40,003 nucleotides of DNA from a virus. The notes beneath the pieces are model-generated. The model had not been told where the DNA came from. It searched no databases and saw only the letters and a program-made list of their open reading frames with translations. The position numbers and the translations under genes were made by a program. Of this stretch, positions 5,567 through 36,381 are shown piece by piece. The stretch spans positions 1 to 40,003 of IMG/VR virus record IMGVR_UViG_3300022693_000827, one strand, 5' to 3'. The first letter of the stretch is position 1. Each line of letters begins with the position of its first letter.

Positions 5567-5770
5567 ATGAGATTAAGATGCAGGGTAGGTTGGCACGAAT
5601 GGACAAGGTTTGGCTTGCCAAAGAGTTGCTACGGACAGTTATCGCAGTTCAGAGAGTGCATAGAGTGCGGAGTGGTTAATTCTAAAAAAGGATATCACGA
5701 GCAAGCAGGACCTAGCGACATCGAAGAATCAATAAACGAAGGGAAACAACTTGAAAATAAGGATAAATAG
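5567..5770 (+). CDS. Small zinc-ribbon-like protein (DUF1660-like)
   Basis: 67 aa. Pattern C5-x4-H10-x-W at the N-terminus and CIECG near residue 33 fits a small zinc ribbon of the kind seen in short prophage proteins. The 50-aa protein at 22802-22954 has the same layout and may be a paralogue. The C-terminus is acidic and probably disordered. The -35 element of the RNA promoter lies inside its last codons. Confidence 0.6.
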   Translation: MRLRCRVGWHEWTRFGLPKSCYGQLSQFRECIECGVVNSKKGYHEQAGPSDIEESINEGKQLENKDK

Positions 5771-5778
5771 CGTACAAT
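5751..5778 (+). promoter_or_regulatory. Promoter of the large structured RNA
   Basis: -35 TTGAAA (5751-5756), 16-bp spacer, -10 TACAAT (5773-5778). Expected transcription start is about 5784-5786, exactly at the base of the first hairpin of the non-coding region. This placement supports a dedicated RNA transcript. Confidence 0.65.
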
Positions 5779-5783
5779 AGTAA

Positions 5784-6470
5784 GTGCAGTTTAGTAGCTG
5801 CTTAGAAAGAAAGTTTTGGTACAGGGTTATTACACATGCGGCTTCGATGGGTCTTCTCACCGAAACTTCACCCTCTACTAAACGAGGTTCGCAGTTGTAA
5901 TAACCTTTTTTGCGTTTGGAGTACCGTTAACTTAGGGTGGAGTTTAGCCAGTAAGTAAGCATACGTCATACCAGACACAATCCCTTTCAAATAGCTTCTA
6001 TAGTCTGTATTGTGGAATGAGTTAGTAATCAAAATCATTAGGGTTATGTTAAAGGTTCGAATCCTTGAGATTACACGCCGACGGGCAATAGCTTATTTCA
6101 CAATACAGATTACAGTCTGTTTATATGAGTGAGTTATTCATATTGTGTCTAGGTTCGTCATAAAACCGCCCCACACAATACGCCAAGAGTAGCTCATTCT
6201 TATAAACAGATTAATCAACTGCCGGGTTTCTACCGGATAGACGTAACCAATCCTAAATACAATATGAAACAACTTAATATAAATTGACGTTTAGATACGC
6301 GGATAAACAACAACTAGTCATGGTATATGGTAAGGGCTACCAACAAGGATTGTAAACAGCTACGTTGATACTGATTTATATTATTTAAGGTTAAAGATAC
6401 TTAGTTGGATAGTGACCCATCCATGACAAACGTATCTAGTGACCCATATACTTTAAATATAACCTTATAG
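5784..6470 (+). ncRNA. Candidate large ornate structured RNA (~690 nt)
   Basis: No ORF of useful size occurs here, in a genome that otherwise packs genes end to end. Helices visible by eye: 5786-5789/5798-5801; 5825-5834/5896-5905 (10 bp), continued by 5837-5840/5890-5893; 5843-5851/5856-5864; 5872-5875/5884-5887; 6001-6021/6092-6112 (21 pairs, three G-U); 6025-6030/6069-6074; 6052-6055/6063-6066 with loop TTCGAAT; 6114-6133/6193-6212; 6141-6148/6173-6180; 6152-6155/6164-6167; 6222-6225/6233-6236; 6275-6284/6374-6383; 6328-6332/6338-6342; 6395-6400/6432-6437; 6387-6393/6460-6466. Loops 5790-5796 and 5876-5882 are complementary over 7 nt. Size, phage setting and loop-loop contacts recall GOLLD and ROOL RNAs, but I cannot claim homology. 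No clear terminator is seen, so the 3' end is uncertain; it may be processed from the early mRNA. Confidence 0.7.
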
Positions 6471-6483
6471 GGAAAATACAATG
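6460..6483 (+). repeat. 24-bp repeated leader, copy 1
   Basis: Bases 6460-6483 are identical to 6817-6840. Each ends with the ATG of a small gene and contains the ribosome site TAGGGAAAA. The first copy also forms the 3' strand of the last RNA helix (6460-6466). Confidence 0.9.
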
Positions 6484-6597: not shown

Positions 6598-6815
6598 TGG
6601 CTGTATATAACATAGAAGATCACAAGCCTCATATTACGATAAACGGATTAAAGAGAGTTCACGTTATGCCTTTGTCATTAATTGAAGATATTGCAGCAGG
6701 CAACACACCATTAAGTGATGTTGATGATGCAGATGATTTTATACCAACTTTGATCAAGGAGTGGATTAAAGACAGGTTGCCGATAAAATATAGGCGTGGA
6801 AATATAATAATTTAA
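6597..6815 (+). CDS. Small hypothetical protein (72 aa)
   Basis: 72 aa, acidic in the middle (DVDDADDF) with a basic C-terminus. No family is recognised. It has a very strong Shine-Dalgarno (AAAGGAGG) inside the end of the preceding membrane gene, so it is probably well translated. Confidence 0.65.
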   Translation: MAVYNIEDHKPHITINGLKRVHVMPLSLIEDIAAGNTPLSDVDDADDFIPTLIKEWIKDRLPIKYRRGNIII

Positions 6816-6816
6816 T

Positions 6817-6840
6817 TAACCTTATAGGGAAAATACAATG
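6817..6840 (+). repeat. 24-bp repeated leader, copy 2
   Basis: Identical to 6460-6483 and ends with the ATG of the 54-aa gene at 6838. The downstream coding sequences are unrelated. Confidence 0.9.
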
Positions 6841-11931: not shown

Positions 11932-11959
11932 AAAGACCTATTAAATAAAAAGGGTGTTT

Positions 11960-12451
11960 ATGATTACTCAAGATGAGCTTAGAGAAATTGTTTCTTATGA
12001 TTTTGATACTGGAATGTTTACCCGTTTAGTTACTACTTGCGGTAGCGCTCAAAAGGGTAGTGTACCAATTAGTAAAAACAAAGACGGATATTACCAGTTA
12101 AGGATTAACTACAAGATGTACACGCAACACAGGCTTGTTTGGCTTTATATTTTTGGTGTTTTTCCTAATGGTGATATTGACCACATCAATCATATTAGGA
12201 CTGATAACAGGATTTCAAATTTAAGGGTTGTTGATAAGGCGACGAACAATAAGAATATAAGGAAAAGAAATAATAACACCAGCGGGGTTAATGGTATCTG
12301 GTGGCATAAACAGAACGGGAAGTGGTGTGCTGAAATAAAATCAGACGGGCTAAAAATACATCTAGGTTCTTTTGTTGACATAAAGGATGCCGAGAAAGCA
12401 AGGCTTGATGCAAATAAGAAATATGGATTTCATGAAAATCACGGGAGTTAA
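11960..12451 (+). CDS. HNH homing endonuclease with AP2-type DNA-binding domain
   Basis: 163 aa from ATG 11960, with AAAAAGGG upstream (a GTG two codons earlier is less likely). An N-terminal NUMOD-like strand region is followed by the HNH core: 'HRLVWLYIFG', 'DIDHINHIRTDNRISNLRVV' (about residues 57-85). The C-terminal AP2-like domain has 'TSGVNGIWWHKQNGKWCAEI' and 'LGSFVDIKDAEKA'. Such enzymes cut a gene lacking the insert and spread by repair. Here it sits exactly at the RuvC start codon, with a remnant of that start on its left (11885) and the intact RuvC 4 bases to its right. Confidence 0.93.
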   Translation: MITQDELREIVSYDFDTGMFTRLVTTCGSAQKGSVPISKNKDGYYQLRINYKMYTQHRLVWLYIFGVFPNGDIDHINHIRTDNRISNLRVVDKATNNKNIRKRNNNTSGVNGIWWHKQNGKWCAEIKSDGLKIHLGSFVDIKDAEKARLDANKKYGFHENHGS

Positions 12452-12454
12452 AAT

Positions 12455-12895
12455 ATGTCTAAAATAATCTTGGGGGTGGATCCGGATAGTAAAGCACATG
12501 GTGCGGCCATCTACATAAACAACAAGCTAACATTTTTAGGATGTATGCCTTTGATGGAATTCTACAATCATATAGTTGTTATTCTTGAAAATAACGATCC
12601 TGATAAATTAGAGTTTCATATAGAGGACGTTTGTGCAAATAAGGCGATGTGGCACGGAAAGAAAGAATCACAAGCAGCAAAAAATATGATGTCACAGCGG
12701 CTCGGTATGTGTAAGCAATCACAAATTGAGCTAGAAAGGCTGGCAGAGTATTTCGACATAAAAGTAGTTAAACATAAAATATCTAAGATGTGGAAGAAAG
12801 ACAAATCACAATTCGAGAGGGTTACAGGATGGTCAGGAAGAAGCAACGAGGACACAAGAAGCGCCGCATATTTTGGCTGGCTAGGCTTAAATTAA
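12455..12895 (+). CDS. ruvC: RuvC-like Holliday junction resolvase
   Basis: 146 aa. RNase H-fold residues: D9 in 'ILGVDPDSKAHG', E57 in 'FHIEDV', and D133 in 'SNEDTRSAAYFGW'. A basic middle helix region (KKESQAAKNMMSQRLG) probably contacts DNA. It resolves branched intermediates before packaging. It is slightly shorter than bacterial RuvC (about 170 aa), as is common in phages. It was originally coupled to the HNH-like gene; the homing endonuclease now separates them, and this copy starts from its own weak site. Confidence 0.85.
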   Translation: MSKIILGVDPDSKAHGAAIYINNKLTFLGCMPLMEFYNHIVVILENNDPDKLEFHIEDVCANKAMWHGKKESQAAKNMMSQRLGMCKQSQIELERLAEYFDIKVVKHKISKMWKKDKSQFERVTGWSGRSNEDTRSAAYFGWLGLN

Positions 12896-35535: not shown

Positions 35536-36381
35536 ATGGCTGATAGATTCGTAAACCCAATAACAGACCTAAAAGCATTAGGCTCGATATCCTTTTTCAA
35601 GTCAGGGACTAATTCACCATCTATAACTTTCGCTGATGAACTTGAGAATATACAAAACCCTGCAAAAATTGATGTAGATGCTAACGGAAACTTACCTAAC
35701 ATATTTATTGTAGGCTCAGTAAAGGTTAAGTATTTAGACGAGTTCGGGCAACAATATAACGAACGTGACCCGGTAGGTGGTGACAGGCAACTAGGTGATT
35801 TTACGCTATGGGACGCCCAAGTAAGTTATGATTTAAATGATATTGTTGAGCGTACTAATAAGTTTTATCAATCACTAACTAATGGCAATCAATCAAATGA
35901 CCCGGTATTAAATGCTGATTCATGGAAGGAAATTAGGTTTTTAGGTGTTTACAATATAAACATCCCTTATAGTATTGGTGATGTACTTCAGACCGTAGAT
36001 GGTAATTTATGGAAGTCGTTAACCTCTGTTAATTTAAATAACAACCCTTCTACTAATGATGGTACGAACTGGAAACCAGCAGTAAAAGAAAACCCGTGGA
36101 TAGATAAATCAGCAGGCTTCACTATAGAGGTTAATGAAAGATACACTATAGACGGAAGCTCTGGCTCTGTTGATGGGGCGCTACCAACAGCTTTGGCAAT
36201 AGGCGATGAAATCGTAGTTCATAACGATAGTGTGTCAACAAACACAGTGAGATTAACAAATACAGCGTTAACTATTAAAGGCGTTGGCGCGACTGTAACA
36301 AGCAGTGATAATCTAGTACTAGGGAATGGCGATACTGTTCACTTAGTGGCAAAAACAACATTAATAATGGAGGTCGTTTAA
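35536..36381 (+). CDS. Tail fibre/spike with P22-type head-binding-like N-terminus
   Basis: 281 aa. Residues 1-85 ('PITDLKALGSISFFKSGTNS', 'VDANGNLPNIFIVGSVKVKY', 'RDPVGG') match the adapter domain that joins podovirus spikes to the particle. Residues 95-185 hold two repeated modules, 'YDLNDIVERTNKFYQSL' and 'YSIGDVLQTVDGNLWKSL', each followed by a Trp, like the chitin-binding type 5/12 fold. The C-terminal part is beta-rich. No enzymatic beta-helix is present, so the spike is short; it may bind a surface sugar. Polysaccharide degradation, if any, could come from the 254-aa gene downstream. Confidence 0.75.
   Translation: MADRFVNPITDLKALGSISFFKSGTNSPSITFADELENIQNPAKIDVDANGNLPNIFIVGSVKVKYLDEFGQQYNERDPVGGDRQLGDFTLWDAQVSYDLNDIVERTNKFYQSLTNGNQSNDPVLNADSWKEIRFLGVYNINIPYSIGDVLQTVDGNLWKSLTSVNLNNNPSTNDGTNWKPAVKENPWIDKSAGFTIEVNERYTIDGSSGSVDGALPTALAIGDEIVVHNDSVSTNTVRLTNTALTIKGVGATVTSSDNLVLGNGDTVHLVAKTTLIMEVV

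Follow-up and report, generated by a model that had tools for sequence, protein, structure and literature searches.

A putative new family of modular RNAs in marine phages with a constant, pseudoknotted 5' domain and a seemingly exchangeable 3' domain

Bacteria and phages are known to contain only a handful of large, ornate RNA classes, whose functions are little understood. GOLLD assembles into a homo-14-mer cage and ROOL into a homo-octamer cage. Attenuator and antitermination leaders of phages, such as those of HK022 put, are ~70 nt long and consist of simple hairpins. GOLLD is a large RNA of phages and prophages with two separately folding domains and a variable linker, which sometimes carries tRNAs (PMC12286853). 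ROOL, for which the cryo-EM example is 659 nt long, is also located in phages and prophages and frequently lies in the neighbourhood of tRNAs (PMC12286853). In the Vibrio phage ICP1, the most abundant transcript is an RNA of ~800 nt between gp139 and gp140 (PMC7567579).

The locus described here lies in the 40,003-base virus record IMGVR_UViG_3300022693_000827; this whole stretch of DNA was analysed and is called the window. The nearest isolates by terminase are Pseudoalteromonas virus vB_PspP-H6/1 (77% amino-acid identity) and Vibrio breoganii phage 1.182.O (65%). The RNA locus covers ~690 bases, from 5784 to 6460/6470. A preliminary description of this DNA had reported ~690 bp free of ORFs, and this has been borne out: ORF inspection on both strands revealed no convincing gene between the ORF ending at 5770 and the ORF starting at 6482, and the ORFs within the locus are at most 56 aa long and overlap one another on both strands. 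The three helices named in that description are real, since a base-by-base check finds 21/21 positions paired in 6001-6021/6092-6112 (G-U allowed), 10/10 in 5825-5834/5896-5905, and 19/20 in 6114-6133/6193-6212. The comparison of folding energy with shuffled sequence, also proposed there, favours an RNA (z about -5). The MFE of the locus is -188.6 kcal/mol, against -152.4 ± 7.35 for 20 shuffles (z -4.9) and -150.7 ± 6.9 for 40 shuffles (z -5.5), and seven family members fold below their shuffles with z values of -1.6 to -8.9. The minus strand of the locus is also well folded (z -4.5 against shuffles); energy alone therefore cannot assign the strand, which is assigned by the promoter and the homologues.

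Related loci have been gathered by blastn, by flanking-protein and pattern scans of IMG/VR, and by searches seeded from relatives. They total 43, from Pseudoalteromonas and Vibrio phages and IMG/VR contigs, and some are close relatives of one another. The first relatives were weak blastn matches in the Pseudoalteromonas phages BS5 and HS2. Further members occur in the Pseudoalteromonas phages Pq0, HS1, and HS5, in Vibrio phages including NF, Seahorse, vB_VnaS-L3, and vB_VaM_H2, and in many phages of V. breoganii and V. lentus from the Nahant collection. The members are roughly 360-690 nt long. A sequence model of the 5' domain gives 38 matches over 46 sources and matches the window with an E of 2e-18. 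The nearest Vibrio relative, 1.182.O, has a divergent member near 36088-36211, and no member was found in the nearest Pseudoalteromonas relative, H6/1. Flanking-protein searches retrieve related phages, and the neighbouring genes are no constant partner of the RNA. The member records are unannotated at the RNA element, except for tRNAs and a few short predicted ORFs. In phages BS5, HS5, and Pq0, short minus-strand CDSs have been annotated within or across the RNA, at L003:4294-4407 (ANY29572.1), L022:2310-2450 and 2626-2715, and L019:2653-2766; these annotations are probably spurious.

A search of plasmids gave no family match. A pattern scan of chromosomes and prophages in 84,980 genomes gave one true match, L042 (NVVV01000067.1, a contig of a Robiginitomaculum MAG), and one false match, L041; L026 and L028 are likewise false pattern matches. 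L042 is a full member on a contig binned to this alphaproteobacterial MAG, and may be a misbinned phage contig or a sign of a wider host range. A model search of 398 genomes of the phylum of this MAG found nothing beyond L042. Among the results of a literature search of open-access papers, the family is described nowhere.

The promoter and the 5' part of the RNA contain the following features:

5751..5778, + strand: sigma-70-type promoter TTGAAA - 16 nt - TACAAT, an arrangement kept across members
5784..5907, + strand: constant 5' domain, ~130 nt, recovered by the sequence model, with 95.9% of cells paired in 18 members
5786..5801, + strand: P1 hairpin, GCAG-TTTAGTAG-CTGC, the loop of which is one PK1 strand
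5875..5882, + strand: the other PK1 strand, CTACTAAA, which pairs with the loop at 5790-5797 (8 bp)
5809..5869, + strand: P2, 5809-5820 with 5859-5869, the second pseudoknot, its second strand inside the P5 loop
5849-5851 / 5871-5873, + strand: P5, GGG with CCC, the loop of which encloses the second strand of P2
5823..5907, + strand: P3, a long stem of 5823-5834 with 5896-5907, examined by permutation test and pair counts
5906..5911, + strand: U6 tract, terminator-like, immediately 3' of P3

The promoter has been defined as two hexamers with at least 9 of 12 matches to the sigma-70 consensus and a spacing of 16-18 nt. Of the 39 members tested, 38 have it directly before the first hairpin, as compared with 7.4% of windows drawn at random from these loci. 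A generic promoter scan of the window alone gave no excess over shuffles, and the evidence for the promoter is therefore its conserved position. As the -10 box lies at 5773-5778, the start of the RNA is placed near 5784, and a host-type promoter appears to start the RNA at the first hairpin.

The 5' domain runs from P1 through the first strands of P2, P3, and P4, the GGG of P5, and the second strand of P2, followed by the CCC of P5, the PK1 strand, the second strands of P4 and P3, and the U tract. Because P2 crosses P3 and PK1 crosses P1, this arrangement contains two pseudoknots. RNAalifold returned zero pairs on the first alignment, which is too diverse, and for this reason a sequence-only model (R1) was combined with tests of the pairs by permutation and explicit counts. 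In the 18-member alignment, the 95.9% of paired cells compares with 88.0 ± 0.7% in shuffled controls, which ignore sequence relatedness, and with 47-67% in slid controls, which take account of it; the covariation score is 0.377 against 0.223 ± 0.013 in the control. All 108 cells of the six conserved PK1 pairs are paired, and five of these six pairs have changed on both strands. A mix-and-match test compared the pairing of each member's own strands with that of strands exchanged between members (25 members, 5000 permutations, relatedness again ignored). The own pairing is 7.0 against 5.26 ± 0.21 permuted for PK1, 8.17 against 5.25 ± 0.26 (maximum 6.58) for P2, and 12.3 against 6.7 ± 0.5 (maximum 9.3) for P3, and 0/5000 permutations reach the own value in any of the three. 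In ten members outside the first alignment, the PK1 strand is the best pairing in most, and L055 and L065 are ambiguous.

The geometry of PK1 is that of an ordinary H-type pseudoknot, with 1-2 nt before a second stem of 6-7 bp. In standard pseudoknot geometry, 1-2 nt can span a second stem of this length. PK1 can therefore form within one molecule, and there is no sign of intermolecular contacts. A subset of members (L006, L016, L031, L032, and L038) has a longer P3 and inner strands in a different order. At least five U residues follow P3 in 41 of the 43 members, and the remaining two, L022 and L030, keep the rest of the domain.

Downstream of the U tract, the window has four hairpins before the 3' domain:

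5910..5980, + strand: hairpin A, 5910-5919 / 5971-5980, the tRNA site of relatives and a bare hairpin here
6001..6112, + strand: hairpin B, with a T-arm-like tip AAGG-TTCGAAT-CCTT in the stem 6025-6030/6069-6074
6114..6212, + strand: hairpin C, from a pairing check and sequence inspection, apparently a diverged duplicate of the hairpin B stem
6222..6236, + strand: hairpin D (CCGG..CCGG), with a similar hairpin before the 3' domain in many members (inspection)

Most members have a hairpin immediately 3' of the U tract, and its stem covaries (TGTGTCTG/CAGACACA, TTGTGCGT/GCGCGCAA, TTGTATCTG/CAGATACAA, and others). The linker of seven members contains complete tRNAs, located at the hairpin A site in L005 (His), L020 (Trp, Arg), L046 (Gly), L055 (Trp, Arg, Gly), and L058 (Met, Arg), and further along the linker in L030 (Leu) and L044 (Arg). 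Altered forms have also been observed. At site A of L030, a tRNA-like element scores 48.5 bits against the Rfam tRNA model and carries a GGGA loop of 4 nt where the anticodon loop would be, and in L016 a tRNA-shaped element scores 49 bits and has a shortened T arm. In L029, the place corresponding to the tip of hairpin B in the window has an Rfam tRNA score of 33.6 bits. Hairpin A of the window is recognised as a tRNA neither by Rfam (RF00005) nor by ARAGORN, and ARAGORN found no tmRNA with a tag peptide in the window. About nine members (L014, L017, L018, L036, L056, L057, L060, L061, and L065) have no tRNA and no hairpin A. We infer that tRNAs enter the linker, where some degenerate or are co-opted for their shape, and that the RNA as such does not need them. 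The constant 5' domain with its two pseudoknots thus appears to be followed by a linker open to tRNAs, tRNA remnants, or nothing.

The features at the 3' end are:

6270..6460, + strand: 3' domain of type I, from an alignment of 12 members, ending in a conserved AU-rich tail
6292-6299/6431-6438, + strand: type I closing helix, with a compensatory change in L018 (GACCCG/CGGGTC)
6317-6323/6421-6427, + strand: type I inner helix, with a compensatory change in L030
6482..6598, + strand: next gene (38-aa ORF), on the same strand as the RNA, with no terminator between

The RNAalifold model of the type I domain is weak, with the closing helix only partly paired. A second type of 3' domain has a different internal structure and shares mainly the closing helix and the AU-rich tail with type I. 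In further groups of members, DNA similarity beyond the 5' domain is not detectable. Pairs of members differ in opposite ways: L004 and L034 have 5' domains that are 86% identical and no detected similarity after them, whereas L020 and L057 have 5' domains of 52% identity followed by DNA that is 96% identical over 452 nt. The 5' and 3' parts therefore seem to recombine, and the 3' domain would be interchangeable between phages. With the final conserved helix reaching to 6438 and the next ATG at 6482, a separately folded, exchangeable 3' domain appears to end just before the next gene.

The window contains an imperfect repeat of ~35 bp at 6448-6483 and 6807-6840, with 89% identity between the copies, CCTTATAGGGAAAATACAATG included. 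Each copy stands before the start codon of a small gene, and the one at 6448-6483 borders directly on the RNA's 3' end. In several members, an ORF with a T5orf172/MUG113 (GIY-YIG-like) domain sits at the 3' half of the RNA locus or within it; the domain was tested in L006:4264-4965, and an ORF of the same type is positioned there by inspection in L027, L046, L015, and L045. Homing-type endonucleases may target the RNA gene. Elsewhere in the window, the ORF at 11954-12451 is a candidate homing endonuclease with an HNH/AP2-type look by inspection of its sequence.

A search of the window against all 4227 Rfam models with E up to 10 gave no GOLLD or ROOL match, and only tRNA scored above gathering when the window and 21 other loci were compared with Rfam. 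OLE and HEARO have no gathering match in the window and are absent from the nine matches of the region with E<=10. Matches to microRNAs and snoRNAs near E 1 in the window are due to chance. With the GOLLD model RF02032, the window and eight member records gave no match at E<=10, and the controls matched only below the cut-off; with the ROOL model RF03087, neither nine member records nor the control genomes gave a match. Since the ROOL controls were silent and no true GOLLD positive was run, the case against these two classes comes chiefly from the whole-Rfam scans and the reversed conservation. The preliminary description had suggested membership of GOLLD or ROOL, which these results do not support, and the covariance search that it proposed (GOLLD, ROOL, OLE, and HEARO) produced no match. 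On the other hand, its proposal of a large structured non-coding RNA agrees with the homologues, the conserved promoter, and the compensatory covariation, pseudoknots included, that it had named as a check, and with no Rfam match the same evidence upholds its alternative of a new class. The locus almost certainly represents a real RNA family. Judged from sequence comparison, this family of marine phages appears to be new, modular, and outside Rfam.

The preferred reading, with a probability of roughly one half, is that of a compact structural RNA acting in trans. The RNA would be transcribed during infection, with the 5' domain as a common scaffold and the 3' domain as the variable functional part. 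The linker would tolerate tRNAs as passengers, and host RNase P together with other RNases may set them free. That the genes downstream vary between phages is in keeping with a self-standing module. By its size, setting, and tRNA-bearing linker, the RNA would work in a manner analogous to GOLLD and ROOL. More speculatively, it could be a new class of modular RNA machine built on a universal, pseudoknotted 5' platform, on which a tRNA or tRNA mimic would sit next to the exchangeable 3' domain. The whole would act in trans in the course of infection and might self-assemble into a particle distinct from GOLLD and ROOL; in the same tentative proposal, the mimic would have an altered anticodon arm and would have been recruited for its shape. 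Formation of a homo-oligomer or cage is, on balance, doubtful.

The main rival is a cis-acting leader, because no terminator separates the RNA from the next gene. The RNA would then be a 5' untranslated part controlling the downstream operon, with P3 and the U tract as an attenuator or antitermination element. A promoter lies upstream, the next gene has the same orientation and as a rule begins 25-150 nt past the last helix (often 25-45 nt), and a terminator-like hairpin between the two was found in only 1 of 23 members and not in the window; P3 with its U tract is kept in the 41 members noted above. The absence of a terminator means that the RNA may be part of an mRNA leader, and it is possible that the RNA is processed from the mRNA, serves as its leader, or both. 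However, no conserved regulated gene follows the RNA, as the downstream genes are unrelated among members and comprise methylases, calcineurin-like phosphoesterases, hypothetical genes, and structural genes. Moreover, L022 and L030 are otherwise intact without the U tract, an attenuator needs neither a conserved folded 3' domain nor tRNA cargo, and in BS5 the next gene seems by inspection to have a promoter of its own. A cis-acting leader is therefore considered unlikely. As a separate observation, a calcineurin-like phosphoesterase gene comes immediately after the RNA in phages NF and 1.054.O (L021:3003-3527 and L059:1992-2657) and apparently in L024 as well, near 12480.

The U tract that closes the 5' domain could also split the locus into two RNAs, a pseudoknotted small RNA of ~130 nt ending at this tract and, by readthrough, the tRNAs and a separate 3' RNA. 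The independent recombination of the 5' and 3' parts is consistent with such a division, but both parts are present in nearly all complete loci, and the short members L014, L017, and L018 join them by a short linker with no obvious second promoter in a non-systematic inspection, which makes two RNAs improbable. Still a little harder to sustain is the view that the tRNA shapes of the linker act as a decoy or delivery RNA, baiting host defence nucleases or replacing the tRNAs they cut. The complete tRNAs of seven members and the abnormal elements of L016 and L030 speak for it; on the other hand, the members devoid of both tRNA and hairpin A, and the window element that is not recognised as a tRNA, speak against it. 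A highly diverged GOLLD or ROOL, already disfavoured, is very improbable, given the missing covariance-model match and the reversed conservation, despite the size, the phage location, and the linker tRNAs, which GOLLD linkers sometimes share (PMC12286853).

The family occurs in small, isolated, culturable Vibrio and Pseudoalteromonas phages, which makes the RNA amenable to deletion, purification, structure determination, and domain swaps. The natural domain swaps, together with the series from full tRNA to altered tRNA to bare hairpin, constitute a built-in experiment on the roles of the RNA and its tRNA passengers.

Among the known systems, phage attenuator and antitermination leaders resemble the new family as promoter-proximal structured RNAs before co-directional genes, but leaders of the HK022 put type have neither tRNAs nor a second folded domain. 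The ICP1 RNA likewise comes from a Vibrio phage, is large and non-coding, and has no Rfam match at gathering score. Kinship with it has been ruled out, as there is no sequence or profile similarity; the ORF-less ICP1 region (L062:10098-11108, ORF139/ORF140) matches neither Rfam at gathering nor the new family, and is a separate, uncharacterised large phage RNA. ROOL has a similar length, phage location, and tRNA neighbourhood (PMC12286853), but its covariance model does not match the new family. GOLLD, too, is a large elaborate phage RNA with two domains and, as in relatives of the window rather than in the window itself, tRNAs in the linker. It differs in length, often exceeding 800 nt as compared with roughly 360-690 nt here, and in the polarity of its conservation: in GOLLD the 3' domain is universal and the 5' domain variable, whereas in the new family the 5' domain is constant and the 3' domain varies.
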